From a virus: 39,826 nucleotides of DNA. The notes beneath the pieces were generated by a model that ran no database searches, had not been told where the DNA came from, and saw nothing but the letters and a program-made list of their open reading frames with translations. This document shows positions 22,407-33,235 of the stretch, piece by piece (position 1 is the stretch's first letter; each line of letters begins with the position of its first letter). Where the stretch lies: positions 1 through 39,826 of the IMG/VR virus record IMGVR_UViG_3300042922_001494. One strand, 5' to 3'. The translations under genes were made by a program, and so were the position numbers.

Positions 22407-22553
22407 CTATGCTATCCTTGTCGTTGACACTGCCATAATGAACGCCATAGTGCACCACAATATTGTTCCGCAAATATCTTTCTTTTTCCAACACCACCAA
22501 GCTGCCGCCAAGTCAACAAACATTGCAACCGTATTCAAACAAAATAGTATCAT
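22407..22553 (-). CDS. Small membrane protein between terL and portal
   Basis: A 48-residue frame: starts MILFCLNTVAMFVDL and contains CGTILWCTMAFIMAV. It has two short hydrophobic segments around a KKKD turn, tryptophan- and cysteine-rich. ATG 22553 overlaps the terL stop as ATGA, and GGAGGAGG lies 8-9 bases upstream inside terL, so it is very probably translated. The function is unknown; a membrane role in a packaging operon is unusual. Confidence 0.68.
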   Translation of the reverse strand: MILFCLNTVAMFVDLAAAWWCWKKKDICGTILWCTMAFIMAVSTTRIA

Positions 22554-23899
22554 TGAACATTCCTCCTCCATTTTGGTAACTTTGTCATACAGTAATACCG
22601 AAGCGCATCAGGACCGTGATCTAGCTGTTTGACTGGCTTCTCGTCCCCGTTCTGCGCTGCCTTATCGTCCCACACATAGGAACGTATCTCAGTTATCAGA
22701 CCTTCGCAGCGTTTATGCACCTTGATCTTTCCTGATTGAAAAAGAGCCGCAACCACACGGATTCCGTCAAGAACTTCGTTGTCAGCAGGTTTTACGATAT
22801 ACCCCCGGCTCTTCAACTCTGCTATGAAGCTGGCTGCCGATGGATCCGAAACAACGTCGCACTGCAAATCAGGATTGTCTCCCATGAAGGTAACCATATC
22901 ATCACCATACTGGCTGTCTGTTTTCTGCCCTTCCTTTTCCACCCGGCTGTCCCACCGGTACTCCCGATCTACCCAGATGGTGTCTCCATCATCGTAAATA
23001 TCCAGGAATACACATGGGTTCGTAGTTCCGTAATCTAATGAAATCGTGCGAATGGAGAGATACTCCAATCCCTTGGGACGCGTCTCATCATCGTAGACGT
23101 TGGAGGACTTAGTAAACATGGTATATATAAGCCCTTCGGCAACCGCCCACAATCCCTCGATATAACGTAAAAAAAAGACACCTGCGTACAAACTGCGGTA
23201 TCTCTTCTTGATCGCTTCGTCCAGGGAAAGATTATCTTCCATGGTGAAGTGCAAATATAAGATGTTCTTAACTTCCTTGTCTGAAGCCCTTAACTCTTCG
23301 GCTTTCTTTCTGCCCAGATATCCTATACACTTATTGATCCAACCGACCTTGAACCAATGCATCGGACCTGCAGGGTTGCAGTTAAACCAAAACTTTGAAC
23401 CCGTGATAGAACAACGTCCGGTTGCCTGGTTGACAAACGATTCCGGCATCAGGGCAACTTCATCAAAAAAAGCCCCGGCAGCTGTAATACCTTGCACCAG
23501 CTCCTGGGAACCTTCATCCTTTCCACCGAAGATATGAAAATAGTTAGTAACTTTACCCTTTGTTACTTCCAGCATGTTAGGCGTTTCACCAGACAAATGA
23601 TGAATACAGTGATACCCTCTGCTTCGTAGCATCATCTTTAAATTGGTAAGCACGTTACGCTGAAACGAACTGATTGTTTTACCAGCCATGATAAAGTTCT
23701 GTCCATTGAAAGAGCTCATGGCCCAAAACACATATGACAAAGACATGGAAACCGTCTTCCCTGATCGAATCGCACCATCAGCGATAATTCCGTCCATATC
23801 CTTAACTGGAGAATTCTTCGTCCACCAGTTCAATACCATTCTCTGCTTACGGGAAAACGGTTGAAACTTAAATATCTGTTTCCTCATCCTCCTGCTCAT
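22550..23899 (-). CDS. terL: Terminase large subunit
   Basis: 449 residues. Walker A is GAIRSGKT (residues 42-49), Walker B AGAFFDEV (~141-148), and the C-terminal RNase H-like nuclease includes SLDYGTTNP and the DPSAAS acidic motif. It is of the XtmB/Terminase_3 type. It cuts concatemeric DNA and powers packaging. The start overlaps terS by 32 bp if ATG 23899 is used; ATG 23887 is also possible. Confidence 0.95.
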   Translation of the reverse strand: MSRRMRKQIFKFQPFSRKQRMVLNWWTKNSPVKDMDGIIADGAIRSGKTVSMSLSYVFWAMSSFNGQNFIMAGKTISSFQRNVLTNLKMMLRSRGYHCIHHLSGETPNMLEVTKGKVTNYFHIFGGKDEGSQELVQGITAAGAFFDEVALMPESFVNQATGRCSITGSKFWFNCNPAGPMHWFKVGWINKCIGYLGRKKAEELRASDKEVKNILYLHFTMEDNLSLDEAIKKRYRSLYAGVFFLRYIEGLWAVAEGLIYTMFTKSSNVYDDETRPKGLEYLSIRTISLDYGTTNPCVFLDIYDDGDTIWVDREYRWDSRVEKEGQKTDSQYGDDMVTFMGDNPDLQCDVVSDPSAASFIAELKSRGYIVKPADNEVLDGIRVVAALFQSGKIKVHKRCEGLITEIRSYVWDDKAAQNGDEKPVKQLDHGPDALRYYCMTKLPKWRRNVQ

Positions 23900-27536: not shown

Positions 27537-27694
27537 GATTTATTATCCTTTCCCGGCATACACTCAAAATGTATGCGCAGCTCACTCCGTCTTCTGGTTT
27601 TAATGTACACATGCTCCCCATGGATCTCCTTACCGCAGATATAGCAGATATGTATTTCCTGTTGTGGAACACTGGCTTTTGATTTAGCTGGCAT
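27524..27694 (-). CDS. Small zinc-ribbon protein
   Basis: 56 residues if started at ATG 27694 (AAGGGTGTG upstream); ATG 27727 would add 11 residues. CYICGK and HFECMPG make a CxxC...HxxC zinc-binding site over about 30 residues, as in treble-clef or ribbon proteins that bind nucleic acid. It overlaps both neighbours. Function unknown. Confidence 0.65.
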   Translation of the reverse strand: MPAKSKASVPQQEIHICYICGKEIHGEHVYIKTRRRSELRIHFECMPGKDNKSCGR

Positions 27695-28052
27695 TCTGTT
27701 CACACCCTTTCGCAACCCGATGGACAATTTCCCTCAGCTGACTGGCATATTCAAGAACCAGATCTGCATCCTGCTGAATGAAAGCTGCTTGACTTGCCTT
27801 TTTCATAATTCCGGATCCTTTAATAGCCGTATTAATCTCCACGTATTTCTGATCAGCTTGGGACCGATCTATCCGCAATCCACCCAATACAACATCCTGA
27901 ATGACTTCTCTGGTCATGGATTGTATCTTTTTTGTAAGCTGATCATATCCCTTCCGGTATTCTGCCTTTAATTGCTCCAGAGGTATGTTTTCCTTGTTGC
28001 GCTTTAAGGTTACAAGCAGAGATCGATACTCACTCATTACTGTTTCTGTCAT
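27684..28052 (-). CDS. Phage early protein of unknown function
   Basis: 122 residues, mostly helical and charged ('LKAEYRKGYDQLTKKIQSMTREVIQDVVLGGLRIDRSQADQKYVEINTAI' in fragments). GGAGGAATT precedes ATG 28052. It is the first gene downstream of the GTTACA repeat cluster on the minus strand. No family is recognised; proximity to the putative origin makes a replication-related role possible but unsupported. Confidence 0.65.
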   Translation of the reverse strand: MTETVMSEYRSLLVTLKRNKENIPLEQLKAEYRKGYDQLTKKIQSMTREVIQDVVLGGLRIDRSQADQKYVEINTAIKGSGIMKKASQAAFIQQDADLVLEYASQLREIVHRVAKGCEQNAS

Positions 28053-28066
28053 AATTCCTCCAATAA

Positions 28067-28366
28067 GTTACAAGGGTTACAATTGATTGCAGTGTTTTGT
28101 AACCTATTTAATCCACCTAATCCCTTGATTTTGCTACATTTTTGACTTACGGTTACAAAGTTACAAGGTTACAATCATTTTTTCTCTTACGTGCGTTGTG
28201 TGTAAAATATTGATTTGCAAATTTATATGTGTGCTTACGTGTATAGTATAAAAAGCTTGTAACTTCTGTAACTTTGTAACTTTACCTCTCTAAGCCACAT
28301 ACACCCTAGATTTTTCAGTTACAATTCATAAGTTAAAACTGTAACTTTTCGCCAATAATATGTAAC
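28067..28366. repeat. GTTACA repeat cluster, candidate phage replication origin
   Basis: A gene-free stretch with twelve copies of GTTACA or its complement. Direct copies (GTTACAA) start at 28067, 28076, 28152, 28160, 28168 and 28318; inverted copies ([T/C/A]TGTAAC) start at 28097, 28257, 28266, 28274, 28339 and 28360. A triplet of direct copies 8 bp apart faces a triplet of inverted copies 8-9 bp apart across an 82-bp AT-rich centre, which also has two CTTACGTG boxes (28186, 28234). This geometry, just beyond a helicase and primase gene, fits an iteron origin or an operator array. Confidence 0.7.
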
Positions 28367-28370
28367 CTTT

Positions 28371-30212
28371 TTATTTAAAAGGCAATTCCCCGTCTTCCAC
28401 GGCCACAAATTTTGATTCTCCACCTATATCTTCGGGCATATTTATACAGGCGCAGCGCACGGATTTACCGCACACCTTTGATGATTTATATAAATTTCCA
28501 CTATTATCTTTTGCAAGTCGATTGTTTTGGTCGAGCCAGGATAAAAGAGCCTTAGAGTTGAATCCACCGTCTTCGCAAATCTTTTCAAAGACACTCCGTA
28601 TTATTCTGACTTCATCTCCTTTAATTGATCCATAACAGGGATCGGCTCCGTTTTCAAATTTTGCTTGATTGCTGACACAGAAATCCTGTAAGAACTCAAA
28701 ACCACGAGCTCCAACATCAACATTTTCCTTGGTATGCAGGTGCTTTTCTATGTCTGCCACGGTCAGAGCTTGTCCATCACAAAATATCCACTCCGTTGCC
28801 AGAGCGTCGGCCGTTAAAATTGCTGCAGCGGCCATTGTCTGCTTCTCAGTCGAGGCTGTCCCTAATTCTTGGTAGAACTGCTTATAATAATTCTTGGCCT
28901 TTTCCTTGGCCCCTTCTGTTGACAGAAAGCCCATAAACAACCGCCCAGCATGGCCGTAATTTGTCCTTATGACCTCCAGAAGACCATGTGCATCCTTAAA
29001 CAGCTTCTCCCTGCACTCAATCTCAATTATACGGTTTACGGATCCACCACCTGACGCATTATGGGTAATGGGAGACTCTCCAGATGTAATGGTGCAATTC
29101 TTCCACGTAAGAGTATTCTGTAATCCTCCTGTTTTCGCTCCTCTGGTCTTGCCTATGCCTTCACAGAGCATATAAACGGCTTGCTCAAAGGATTTCTTAT
29201 CCTTCACAAGCTGAAATTCATCTAAGATCAATGGGAGGTTATTTACAAACCCTGCCTGCTGTTCCAGTCCCACTACCGTGCCATTAAAGGTCTGCATAAA
29301 GTTAGCGTCATCGTTCGGATCCGCCCATACGGAAGTTGCCAGAAGCTGGGCCACTGTTTTTCCCGTCTCAGTTCCACCCCACAGATGAACGATAAAGTTC
29401 AGTTTCCCTATTGTTTTTAGCACAACCGATGCAAAGCTTGCAGCCAGGGCAATCTTGGCTGGAGAATTAGTTTCTCTAACCTTTCTCACTTCTGTGACCC
29501 ATGATTCCAGCTTTCCCTCTGAGCGGACCGATTGAAAGATCTTTCTAAAATTGTCCTGGCCATCAAACTCCAAGTTTCCAGTATACGGGCAGAATTGTCC
29601 TGTTTTCGTCCAGCCCAAATGACTCACTGACTGAACTTTTGGAATAATATCATGATTAAGATCATCCATATTTTGTAAATACTCCACCATATAGGAAGCA
29701 TTCTTATCTGATATTGATATATCCTTGTCAGCAAGATCCTTTATGCCATTTGCTGTAAACAAAGCCTTCTTAGCCGCCACCACACTGCTCCAGGCTCCGT
29801 AATTTCTACGGAACATGAGGCGAAGCTTTACACTTTCATCCTCAATGTTTATAAGCCTTTGCACAGGTAGAATTGGGTGCGTACATGCTATATCAAGACC
29901 CTGCTTATCATTGCGTCTTACAATGCCTTCATCATTGGCGATCCAATCTCCGGTATAAAGCTCTATTGGCTGATCCTTAAAGTTGGTGACGTTGTTTACA
30001 ACGCTGTTCATACTCTTTTTGTCACCATGCTGCGCAAAGTAAGCCTTTACCATAGTACCAAAGCGTCGGAATCCTACTTTTTCGGCATTGGCAGTTAGGT
30101 TATTAAATAACTGCATGTATTTAAAACCATCGTCCCGGTGAGCATAAAGGAGCTTATAAGGCTCTTCGGTATTAAATTCTTCTTGGGTATAAACCTTTAA
30201 AGGTTCATTCAT
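28371..30212 (-). CDS. DUF927 replicative helicase-like protein
   Basis: 613 residues. Walker A GGTETGKT (279-286) and Walker B LILDEFQ (328-334) lie in the DUF927 domain ('WGGTETGKTVAQLLATSVWADP', 'FNGTVVGLEQQAGF', 'KTRGAKTGGLQNTLTWKNCTITSGESPIT', fragments). DUF927 proteins are SF3/AAA+ helicase-like and occur with CHC2 primase domains in phages and mobile elements. It probably unwinds the origin located just past its stop. ATG 30212 overlaps the primase-like gene by 8 bp. Confidence 0.87.
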   Translation of the reverse strand: MNEPLKVYTQEEFNTEEPYKLLYAHRDDGFKYMQLFNNLTANAEKVGFRRFGTMVKAYFAQHGDKKSMNSVVNNVTNFKDQPIELYTGDWIANDEGIVRRNDKQGLDIACTHPILPVQRLINIEDESVKLRLMFRRNYGAWSSVVAAKKALFTANGIKDLADKDISISDKNASYMVEYLQNMDDLNHDIIPKVQSVSHLGWTKTGQFCPYTGNLEFDGQDNFRKIFQSVRSEGKLESWVTEVRKVRETNSPAKIALAASFASVVLKTIGKLNFIVHLWGGTETGKTVAQLLATSVWADPNDDANFMQTFNGTVVGLEQQAGFVNNLPLILDEFQLVKDKKSFEQAVYMLCEGIGKTRGAKTGGLQNTLTWKNCTITSGESPITHNASGGGSVNRIIEIECREKLFKDAHGLLEVIRTNYGHAGRLFMGFLSTEGAKEKAKNYYKQFYQELGTASTEKQTMAAAAILTADALATEWIFCDGQALTVADIEKHLHTKENVDVGARGFEFLQDFCVSNQAKFENGADPCYGSIKGDEVRIIRSVFEKICEDGGFNSKALLSWLDQNNRLAKDNSGNLYKSSKVCGKSVRCACINMPEDIGGESKFVAVEDGELPFK

Positions 30213-30735
30213 TTAAGCTTCTCATCTCCTCTTGCTCTTCCCGGATGCCAGATACTAAGATTCTGTAATCTTCTTCCAAGATTTGTTTTTTATTAATCAC
30301 CACCGCCCATTCATCTGACAGGGGCTCATAAACGCTTTCGAGCTTGTCGTACATACGAAGCAACCGGCAGACCTCAATTAACTTTTGTATCTTCCATGCC
30401 TTAAATTCTGCTTCTTGTATGCGAGTTGCTTCTCGTTCTCTTTTTCTCATCAATATCTGAGATAGGTTCACTTTATCCCCTGAGCGATAATCCCCTCCTA
30501 ATTCGATAAACGCCTCCTTAAACCCAACGTCATCCATCATCTGAATAAAACTAAAGATATCTCCATTCGCTCCACAAGCGTGGCAATGAAAATCCTTATC
30601 GTATACCTTAAGAGAAGCATGTCTGTCCCCATTGTGGAAGGGGCAGGGTATAAACCCCTTCCTATTGGTTTGAAATCCATAACGCTCCACAATATCCCTC
30701 ATGCTATATGTATCTTTGATTTCCTCAACGGTCAC
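30205..30735 (-). CDS. CHC2 zinc-finger primase-like protein
   Basis: 176 residues from GTG 30735, with GGGAGGTG six bases upstream; a TTG at 30759 is inside the preceding gene. The N-terminal half is a DnaG-type zinc finger: CPFH (C31, H34) and CHAC (C51, C54) with 'YSMRDIVERYGF', 'SLKVYDKDFHCHACGANGDIFSF'. The TOPRIM catalytic domain is missing, and the C-terminus is helical, so it probably recognises DNA for the DUF927 partner rather than acting as a full primase. Overlaps both neighbours. Confidence 0.87.
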   Translation of the reverse strand: MTVEEIKDTYSMRDIVERYGFQTNRKGFIPCPFHNGDRHASLKVYDKDFHCHACGANGDIFSFIQMMDDVGFKEAFIELGGDYRSGDKVNLSQILMRKREREATRIQEAEFKAWKIQKLIEVCRLLRMYDKLESVYEPLSDEWAVVINKKQILEEDYRILVSGIREEQEEMRSLNE

Positions 30736-31195
30736 CAGAGACACCTCCCAGTAATTCAATTATCTTGCTGCCAGTATGTAGTTTGTCGCAGAATAGGAAC
30801 TGGGTATCATATTTACGTTCCATAGTCTTTAAGATTTTCTCCAGCTTCTCGCCGGTGACCGCTTTTGGAGACGTTTTCAATCGTGGATTGTTCCATTCAT
30901 GGACATCATCAATGCTCTTGATCTGGTTGCTATGCTCCACCAACATGATCACCTTGACTCCAATTTCCTGCGCTCGTTTTAATTCGTCGGTAAATCTTCG
31001 ATGCCCCTGGCACACGTTGGAGGCGACCTCGGTTAAATTTTGCTTCCGGTCTATAATCAGCCTGGGATTGTCAAAATTCATATAGTCCCCGACATGGAGT
31101 TTGCTGACAAAGTGCTGTATTCCCTGCTGATCGAAAGTGTCCACAATTTTACGGATTGCCCTGGCCTTTTCTCTGGAATCAATTTGTATTACCAT
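30725..31195 (-). CDS. ERCC4-type (XPF-like) nuclease
   Basis: 156 residues. IDSREK (5-10), VGDY (35-38) and LIIDRK (47-51) match the ERCC4/Mus81 catalytic core (D..RE...GDY...[ED]RK), with Asp in place of the usual Glu of the ERK motif. The rest is a compact alpha/beta domain without the HhH tail. It probably cuts branched or forked DNA during phage recombination, replacing a RusA/RuvC resolvase. AAGGAGGG precedes ATG 31195. Confidence 0.85.
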   Translation of the reverse strand: MVIQIDSREKARAIRKIVDTFDQQGIQHFVSKLHVGDYMNFDNPRLIIDRKQNLTEVASNVCQGHRRFTDELKRAQEIGVKVIMLVEHSNQIKSIDDVHEWNNPRLKTSPKAVTGEKLEKILKTMERKYDTQFLFCDKLHTGSKIIELLGGVSGDR

Positions 31196-31206: not shown

Positions 31207-31638
31207 TTAGTTGAATGGAAGACCTTCGTCTTCGACTCCATCTGGGATGTTCATAAATCCGTCACCGACCGCACTACTGGGGGCGGGTCTTGATTCATTT
31301 GCAGATCCATTTGCATTGTTAAAATTCTTAGATTCACCAAACTCTACCTGCTCTGCCACAATATCTGTTGTGTAAACTTTTTGCCCATCCTGATTTGTGT
31401 AGGAACCTGTTTGAATTCGTCCCTCAACAACAATTTTGTTTCCCTGAAAGAAATATTTTTCAATGAACTCTGCCGTCTTTCCAAATGCTACTGTATTTAT
31501 GAAATCCGCATTTTGCTCATTTTCTTTTTTAAACCGCCGATCGACCGCAATGGCAAAGCGGGCAACGGTATGTCCATTGTCTGAATATCTGACCTCAGGA
31601 TCCCTGGTCAACCTGCCTATTAGAATTACTCTATTGAT
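31207..31638 (-). CDS. ssb: Single-stranded DNA-binding protein with apparent ATC start
   Basis: OB-fold SSB: ..RLTRDPEVRYSDNGHTVARFAIAVDR, DFINTVAFGKTAEFIEKYF.GNKIVVEGRIQTGSY (fragments), with acidic DGVEDEGLPF C-terminal tip for partner binding. The family start is M-NRVILIGRL; here the codons are ATC AAT AGA GTA ATT CTA ATA GGC AGG TTG, preceded by an in-frame TGA. GAGGAGG lies 8 nt before ATC (31636-31638), ideal spacing. No ATG/GTG/TTG exists upstream in frame; the first conventional start is TTG 31611, which would delete strand 1. So initiation at ATC (143 residues) is most likely. Confidence 0.87.
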   Translation of the reverse strand: MNRVILIGRLTRDPEVRYSDNGHTVARFAIAVDRRFKKENEQNADFINTVAFGKTAEFIEKYFFQGNKIVVEGRIQTGSYTNQDGQKVYTTDIVAEQVEFGESKNFNNANGSANESRPAPSSAVGDGFMNIPDGVEDEGLPFN

Positions 31639-31652
31639 ATGTCATTCCTCCT

Positions 31653-32321
31653 CTATAGTTCATATTCCATTCCTTTGCTTGCTACATAAACCGGACACTC
31701 TACCAACTCCTGAACTTCCTTCTGAAAAACTGTTTCATCACTTGTCCGATCAGATAAATGCAGTAGACAGACCGTTCTTAAGTCATGGCTCTCGTTTGCC
31801 TGAATAAAATCCTTGCAGGTATCAAGTTCCATGTGCGTAAGCTTTATCCGGTCTTGTAAGCTCTCATGATATGATTCCCGCAACAGAACTCTGCTGTAAT
31901 TGCACTCGATCATGATGTGAATCAGGCTCTTAAATTTATACCGGATATACTCAGTATCCGTTGCGAAAAGCAACCTCCCTATTTCCGGATGTTCAATTAA
32001 AAATCCGGTACACGGCGCATCGTGAACCAATGGAAACGTCCTGACAGCAAAGGGGTTGCTAATCGCCGTCAGTTCCCCCGTTACATGCCCCATGCTTGGA
32101 GCCATAACAGGTATACCGACTTTTATGTACTCATGTAGATATTTAGCATGGTCACCATGCTCATGAGAGACAACCACTCCCATAATCTTACTGATGTTGA
32201 AGTCCAGTGCCTTCTTGACCTCTTTGAATGGTATTCCAGCCTCTATAACAAGGCACTCCGTCTCATTGTGGAGCAGATAGCAGTTTCCCGCCGATCCGCT
32301 CCCTAAACAGGTCAATTTCAA
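31653..32321 (-). CDS. MBL-fold metallohydrolase (YycJ-like), candidate nuclease
   Basis: 222 residues. 'TCLGSGSAGNCYLL' and the zinc motif SHEHGDH (HxHxDH) are clear; FATDTEYI supplies a further Asp ligand. Closest in style to the YycJ/WalJ phosphodiesterase group. It lies in an operon with RecT and an SbcC-like ATPase, overlapping recT as TTGA; in such phages no RecE or YqaJ exonuclease is seen, so it may be the nuclease partner (inference). The start is TTG 32321. Confidence 0.85.
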   Translation of the reverse strand: MKLTCLGSGSAGNCYLLHNETECLVIEAGIPFKEVKKALDFNISKIMGVVVSHEHGDHAKYLHEYIKVGIPVMAPSMGHVTGELTAISNPFAVRTFPLVHDAPCTGFLIEHPEIGRLLFATDTEYIRYKFKSLIHIMIECNYSRVLLRESYHESLQDRIKLTHMELDTCKDFIQANESHDLRTVCLLHLSDRTSDETVFQKEVQELVECPVYVASKGMEYEL

Positions 32322-33235
32322 AATGGATCACCACCAGTTTGCTCTACAACTTCACTATTTACAGCCACCGGCACTTCCTCAAAATCAACTGTATTTGCCT
32401 GACTTAAATCATCTTCGTGCTGATTCACTGTCTCATTGTCAATGTAACGAGGACTACCGTCTTCACTTATAACAGCCATGTCCCGCTCGTATGCATCAGA
32501 CATTTCAATGCTCATAATGCCCCATTTGCTAATTAACTGCCGGATCATGGTCTTTTCTGCCATCTCGTCAAAGCTCTTATACCAGAAGGAAGAATACTTC
32601 CAGAGATCCTTCTTAGGGATTTTTCCTTCCTGGAGCAAGTGGTAATCGCTGAGATTAAATGCCTGTGAATACTGGTCTGCATGTTTCTCCATCTTGGACC
32701 TGGTCCAGAATATCTCTTTCCTGAAACCGTTAAGAAGTTCAAAGTATGCCAGATACCCGATAACCGGCAGTTCTTCTCTGATTGCATCATCTTCAATGAA
32801 TTCAAACTTATGTTTACCAGTTGATCGATCACGTCCCAGGTACTCACCCTGGCGGATATAAATTACATCTAAGTCCTTATACTGGCCTGTCCTCATTGCC
32901 AACTGCTTATAACCTTTAGCCCCTAACTGAAACTGGGCATCAACAGCAATCACCTGACCATTACGATCCTTTTTCTTATAGGGAACCATATAAAACTGTC
33001 CCAGTTGCGGACTGGGGGAAAGATTCAAGGCTTCCCCCAGAAGTGCTGCACTTAAAATGCTGTTATGGCTACATTCCTGCAATGCCGGTGTATTCTGTAC
33101 TGCTGATACCACACTTGCAATAAATCTTGTTGTATTCTTCTGACCCACCACCTGCAGAATGTTTGCCTTGACTTTATCGCTTGATAAAAAGCTTGCCATT
33201 CCTTTTGGCTGTGACGTCGCAACTTCGTTTCCCAT
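32318..33235 (-). CDS. recT: RecT-family single-strand annealing recombinase
   Basis: 305 residues. 'VQNTPALQECSHNSILSAALLGEALNLSPSPQLGQFYMVPYK', 'FQLGAKGYKQLAMRTGQYKDL' and 'MAEKTMIRQLISKWGIMS' (fragments) are hallmarks of RecT. It anneals complementary single strands during phage replication and recombination. The C-terminus is acidic. GGAGGCG precedes ATG 33235; the SbcC-like ATPase gene is directly upstream and MBL downstream. Confidence 0.94.
   Translation of the reverse strand: MGNEVATSQPKGMASFLSSDKVKANILQVVGQKNTTRFIASVVSAVQNTPALQECSHNSILSAALLGEALNLSPSPQLGQFYMVPYKKKDRNGQVIAVDAQFQLGAKGYKQLAMRTGQYKDLDVIYIRQGEYLGRDRSTGKHKFEFIEDDAIREELPVIGYLAYFELLNGFRKEIFWTRSKMEKHADQYSQAFNLSDYHLLQEGKIPKKDLWKYSSFWYKSFDEMAEKTMIRQLISKWGIMSIEMSDAYERDMAVISEDGSPRYIDNETVNQHEDDLSQANTVDFEEVPVAVNSEVVEQTGGDPF

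Follow-up and report, generated by a model that had tools for sequence, protein, structure and literature searches.

The window analysed here, the whole 39,826-nucleotide stretch of IMG/VR virus record IMGVR_UViG_3300042922_001494, is a complete contractile-tailed (myophage-like) prophage in a Clostridium-type bacterium. Genes for portal, major head, maturation protease, large terminase and tail sheath proteins were found in it, together with those for a tape measure, a tail fibre, lysis and an integrase, and relatives with 91–94% protein identity are present in Lacrimispora and in viral contigs. A helicase of the DUF927 type is encoded on the minus strand at the end of a replication operon (Table 1); a metallo-beta-lactamase-fold protein and an SbcC-like ATPase are also encoded upstream of the helicase in the same direction. 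The operon is present as an earlier note on this DNA had named it (DUF927 helicase/CHC2), and directly after it, as that note had also said, lies an array of short repeats. The array occupies the gap between the helicase gene and a co-directional ORF (27684–28052), with the nearest iteron only 4 bp from the helicase stop codon.

Table 1. Positions in the window of the iteron array and of the genes discussed in the text
Feature	Position	Strand	Details
GTTACA, plus-strand copies (starts)	28067, 28076, 28152, 28160, 28168, 28318	+	
GTTACA, minus-strand copies (starts)	28098, 28258, 28267, 28275, 28340, 28361	-	
Iteron array, proposed replication origin	28067..28366	no strand	12 exact GTTACA
Inner iteron triplet	28152..28173	+	pitch 8 and 8 bp
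Inner iteron triplet, opposed to the plus-strand one	28258..28280	-	pitch 9 and 8 bp
AT-rich centre, proposed melting region	28174..28257	no strand	84 bp, 71% AT
Degenerate ATGCGGGTTTGA copy	28289..28300	-	3 mismatches; alone at chance level in window; homologous place in alignment
DUF927 (Cch/SaPIbov1 Rep-like) helicase, proposed self-recognising initiator	28371..30212	-	613 aa
HTH_56 winged helix coding region	28428..28718	-	residues 499-595; helix 553-562, wing strands 576-580 and 583-591
CHC2 zinc-finger protein (DnaG-type primase N-terminal part)	30205..30759	-	184 aa
ERCC4-type nuclease	30725..31195	-	
Single-strand DNA-binding protein (SSB)	31207..31611	-	
RecT-type annealing protein	32318..33235	-	
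Terminase gene	22550-23899		away from array	

The array contains 12 exact copies of GTTACA, six direct and six inverted, all of them where the earlier note had placed them, and the opposed triplets with 8–9 bp spacing that it described were borne out by the measured pitches. From shuffling across the whole window, ~0.11 copies would be expected per 300 bp (Poisson P ~7e-21 for the 12 seen). When the 400 bp following the helicase stop were dinucleotide-shuffled 100 times, no shuffle gave a word scoring as high, and the array stretch ranked first among 26 surrounding 400-bp windows. The centre between the inner triplets is AT-rich, as had been claimed (71% AT versus 57% across the window), but measures 84 rather than 82 bp. 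A mirror-symmetric layout had been ascribed to the array as a whole; this holds fully for the core only: the two inner triplets and the pair at the outer ends (28067/28361) are symmetric within 0–1 bp, and the remaining outer copies lie 10–11 bp off their mirror position. A 13th GTTACA is found at 28009, within the next ORF. The host assembly contains a single occurrence of the word pair AAGTTACAAGGTTACA. GC skew, which is dominated by gene orientation, showed no turn at the array, and a search of Rfam gave no match.

The helicase was assigned to DUF927 (PF06048, E 3.6e-47), and its C terminus matches HTH_56, the Cch helix-turn-helix domain (PF18662, E 3.5e-17). Sequence profile searches returned 8tch (E 1.9e-48) and 5dgk (E 3.9e-28). 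An AlphaFold2 model built from 33 sequences (mean pLDDT 84), in which a helix and a wing hairpin are visible in the C-terminal domain, gave SaPIbov1 Rep (8tch, E 1.5e-25) and then SCCmec Cch (5dgk, E 1.7e-21) as its top two Foldseek matches. The protein thus has a DUF927 domain with a helicase core and a C-terminal winged helix, as expected of the SaPIbov1 Rep/Cch family. Members of this family bind their own origin sequence-specifically and unwind 3'–5'; for the window helicase, such binding is predicted indirectly, from the covariation described below.

To follow the array across relatives, we assembled 117 non-identical helicase loci, drawing on phage records, species genomes and viral contigs, and counted an array where the first 400 bp beyond the helicase stop codon held a repeated 6-base word that beat all 100 dinucleotide shuffles. 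Of these relatives, 105 have at least 30% identity; 92 of the 105 have a significant array in this stretch, which in 88 tops the ranking of 400-bp windows within the locus. Named phages with an array include Anaerostipes phage AC844P2, Roseburia phage Jekyll, Ruminococcus phage phiRg507T2_3 and Thermoanaerobacterium phage THSA-485A. A PICI-type origin, as predicted from such arrays, is thus widespread among complete phages. Not every relative has this arrangement: 13 of the 105 had no significant array in the 400 bp examined. In L104, L105, L106, L111 and L114 (36–39% identity), an array was not detected after the helicase gene, and these loci may have an origin of another kind or at another place. 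In L076 and L084, 400-bp windows ~4.0–4.1 kb upstream of the helicase stop contain a repeated word that beats the origin (score ~17). In THSA-485A (L014 5260–7752), a single 830-aa protein combines the CHC2 zinc finger with the DUF927 helicase. Arrays were also seen after DUF927 genes in the SaPI-type element PT1028, where nine GGGAAC/GTTCCC words have a like layout, and in a Eubacterium callanderi plasmid, where six words are present.

Opposed tandem copies were found in 74 of the 92 arrays, mostly with a tandem pitch of 8–9 bp. The length of the centre in relatives is mostly 83–109 bp and falls mostly into clusters of 83–94 and 104–109 bp; these two gap lengths are about two helical turns apart, perhaps because the two halves of the origin must be in helical phase. 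Iteron counts per array vary between 5 and 13 (mode 8), and the idea that 12 iterons represent 2 x 6 sites for two hexamers was therefore dropped.

A second element was noted in many of the arrays. The sequence ATGCGGGTTTGA occurs between the inner and outer iterons in 38 of 92 loci, at 1.4 per kb versus 0.08 elsewhere (~18-fold), and is identical across arrays with different iteron words. The consensus is approximately AAAAnCC-n-TTTATGCGGGTTTGAG, often present twice in the same direction; examples of the element are found in L009 (at 74 and 256 bp past the helicase stop), L014 and L140. No consensus hairpin was predicted in it. Our guess is that it could serve as a site for priming or for a host factor.

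The iteron word itself varies widely, with ~20 different five-base cores across the arrays when iterons are placed in a register anchored on a near-invariant G4–T5. This register was set algorithmically, and for a few loci it is not certain. Similarity between iterons was associated with identity of the helicase C-terminal domain beyond that of the core (partial r 0.20, 0 of 999 permutations) versus −0.04 for core identity beyond the C-terminal domain. From a tree of the helicase core, 46 phylogenetically matched pairs were drawn, with one word-change call per pair over positions 4–8 in the G4–T5 register. The seven columns that best tracked word change among these pairs (565, 583, 586, 533, 584, 572 and 578) all lie in the C-terminal domain, and residues 549–590 outscored the rest of the helicase (P 2.5e-4). 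When the window's clade was left out, these residues still scored better (P 5e-3), with core columns then entering the top list. Residue 586 was compared with base 7 in registered cases, in tallies that include related loci and depend on the register: Arg or Lys occurs with A in 61 of 67, Glu or Asp with G in 8 of 10, Ser with T in 3 of 3, His with C in 2 of 2 and Trp with C in 5 of 5. The per-position association rests on the G4–T5 register, the sole consistent one of three tried. A register anchored on A–C was unstable, splitting neighbours such as L029 and L134, and with it the matched-pair tests gave nothing clear for residue 579 and little for 586; a free progressive register was likewise unstable and displaced a whole subtree. 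Plain mutual information was set aside as confounded by phylogeny, with core columns such as 198 and 332 scoring equally high.

Switches of word between close relatives were examined in alignments that are independent of the iteron register. The helicases of L078 and L083 differ at 10 of 610 residues, including Ser585His in the wing, in the column that aligns with window residue 586, and 10 of 10 iterons show T to C at the same position, the word being TGTGTGA with Ser585 and TGTGCGA with His585. A non-iteron CACACA stretch in the centre is unaltered, and non-iteron DNA is 78% identical. The ORF directly upstream of the helicase, called CHC2 by gene position, is 98.7% identical between the two, with 2 of 159 residues differing. 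When the window (GTTACA) is compared with L002, L003 and L017 (ATTACA), 11 of 11 alignable iterons show G to A, with flanks 70–73% identical. Here the window and L002 helicases have 8 differences in the first 500 residues and 14 in the 44 residues 549–592, with K579N and C581Y among the wing differences. From one ATTACA sister to another, 9–14 of these 44 residues differ from the window, so K579N is not isolated in that clade. This second switch looks like an exchange of C-terminal domain and origin as one cassette.

We consider it very probable that the array serves as the prophage's replication origin and that the DUF927 helicase encoded upstream acts as both initiator and replicative helicase, reading the iterons by its C-terminal winged helix. 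The earlier note's reading of a symmetric-iteron origin is strengthened by the HTH_56 domain, by SaPIbov1 Rep and SCCmec Cch as the nearest structures and by the arrays in relatives. Binding of the GTTACA iterons by the helicase is well supported, if indirectly, by covariation and homology together, covariation being by itself no proof of binding. If the helicase's own winged helix reads the iterons, no separate initiator gene is needed. The HTH_56 winged helix would bind the GTTACA iterons, and copies of the helicase would assemble on the two opposed halves, probably in the form of two hexamers, a model put forward for SaPI Rep. From there the helicase would open the AT-rich centre and unwind the DNA bidirectionally towards the outside, after which, as their families suggest, the CHC2 protein and the phage SSB may aid priming and fork progress.

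The location of the array between two co-directional genes would also suit an operator or regulatory region through which the helicase or a phage regulator controls downstream transcription. Some initiators do also autoregulate, and one promoter-like match (28245–28272, minus strand), at chance level, overlies an inverted copy. We nonetheless regard this as unlikely: promoter and terminator matches in the array are at or below shuffled expectation, the array stands after and not before the replication operon, and its anatomy is that of tested PICI origins, in which an AT-rich stretch close to the 3' end of the initiator gene lies between two iteron sets (PMC6092414). Short repeats can have many functions, and packaging, recombination or host-driven initiation, with the helicase adjacent by chance, might be proposed instead. 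The chance of this is close to negligible given that the position after the same gene is kept in 92 of 105 relatives, that word changes are tied to the helicase C terminus, that the words are too varied for one host factor and that the terminase gene lies elsewhere.

The array could alternatively be an origin whose iterons are read by CHC2 or another small phage protein that loads the helicase, and the earlier note had named both DUF927 and CHC2 as potential readers. A CHC2 or primase gene does lie directly before the helicase in the annotated loci viewed, and the fusion in THSA-485A makes the two a single protein. The word-tracking columns are in the helicase C terminus, which favours the DUF927 half of that suggestion. 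In L078 and L083, ten iterons switch together with a substitution in the helicase wing while the adjacent small ORF is nearly identical, and SaPI and SCC precedents bind through the helicase C terminus. The CHC2 half is therefore disfavoured, and a reader other than the helicase is highly improbable.

Under the preferred reading, in which the helicase recognises its own origin, the variable iteron positions might be read by a few wing residues through a simple, swappable code. Residue 586 would specify base 7 (Arg or Lys for A, Glu or Asp for G, Ser for T, His or Trp for C) and residue 579 base 4 (Asn for A; Lys, Arg or Ser for G), such that one or two substitutions with a concerted change of iterons would yield a new, mutually incompatible origin. 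We put this forward tentatively, as somewhat more doubtful than not. If true, many orthogonal origins, each recognised by its own helicase, would coexist among the phages of one lineage.

A literature search, with subscription journals, including the original SaPI origin papers, largely outside it, returned no paper on the spread of such origins in complete phages or on covariation between residues and words; these are the new parts of the present analysis. They extend a satellite-type (SaPI/PICI) origin to complete tailed phages of Clostridia and would make origin position and initiator specificity predictable from sequence in many poorly studied phages. Words and helicase C-terminal residues that change together across ~90 relatives make recognition directly testable and offer many candidate orthogonal helicase–origin pairs. 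L078 and L083 amount to a natural experiment on a joint change of specificity in origin and initiator, a long-standing question for replicon evolution and incompatibility.

This kind of origin is known from SaPI/PICI satellites and has been proposed for SCC elements. Iteron plasmid origins of the RepA/RepE types resemble it in having repeated short initiator sites beside an AT-rich region; instead of being helicases themselves, their initiators recruit that of the host, and their iterons are longer and mostly direct. In geminiviruses, close relatives often differ in iterons, each read by its cognate Rep (PMC12548392), but these are ssDNA plant viruses with a rolling-circle Rep of another fold. 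Cch, a DUF927 protein after which HTH_56 is named, is related to SaPIbov1 Rep, and the C-terminal domain of Cch2 binds iterons downstream of its own gene (PMC7581432); only three iterons were found there and replication was not demonstrated in vivo, whereas the window has 12 in an opposed layout. PICI-type origins replicate autonomously with their Rep, and the window shares with them the position immediately 3' of the initiator gene and the opposed triplets around an AT-rich centre. PICIs are satellites without a full capsid and tail gene set of their own; the window carries the full phage set (head, tail, terminase, integrase) and is therefore no PICI, even if its proposed origin resembles that of one. 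PT1028 has the same array anatomy with the word GGGAAC. The closest likeness is to SaPIbov1, whose Rep is the nearest structure to the helicase model and is a DUF927-related, self-loading helicase with a C-terminal DNA-reading domain. Through that domain, SaPI Rep recognises a short-iteron origin directly downstream of its gene, apparently as two hexamers (PMC7581432); the iterons of this origin form two sets, one on either side of AT-rich DNA (PMC7581432, PMC6092414). The window differs from SaPIbov1 in being a complete tailed-phage prophage, in its iteron word and in its partner protein, CHC2 (DnaG-type) in place of the AEP primase of SaPIs (PMC7581432).
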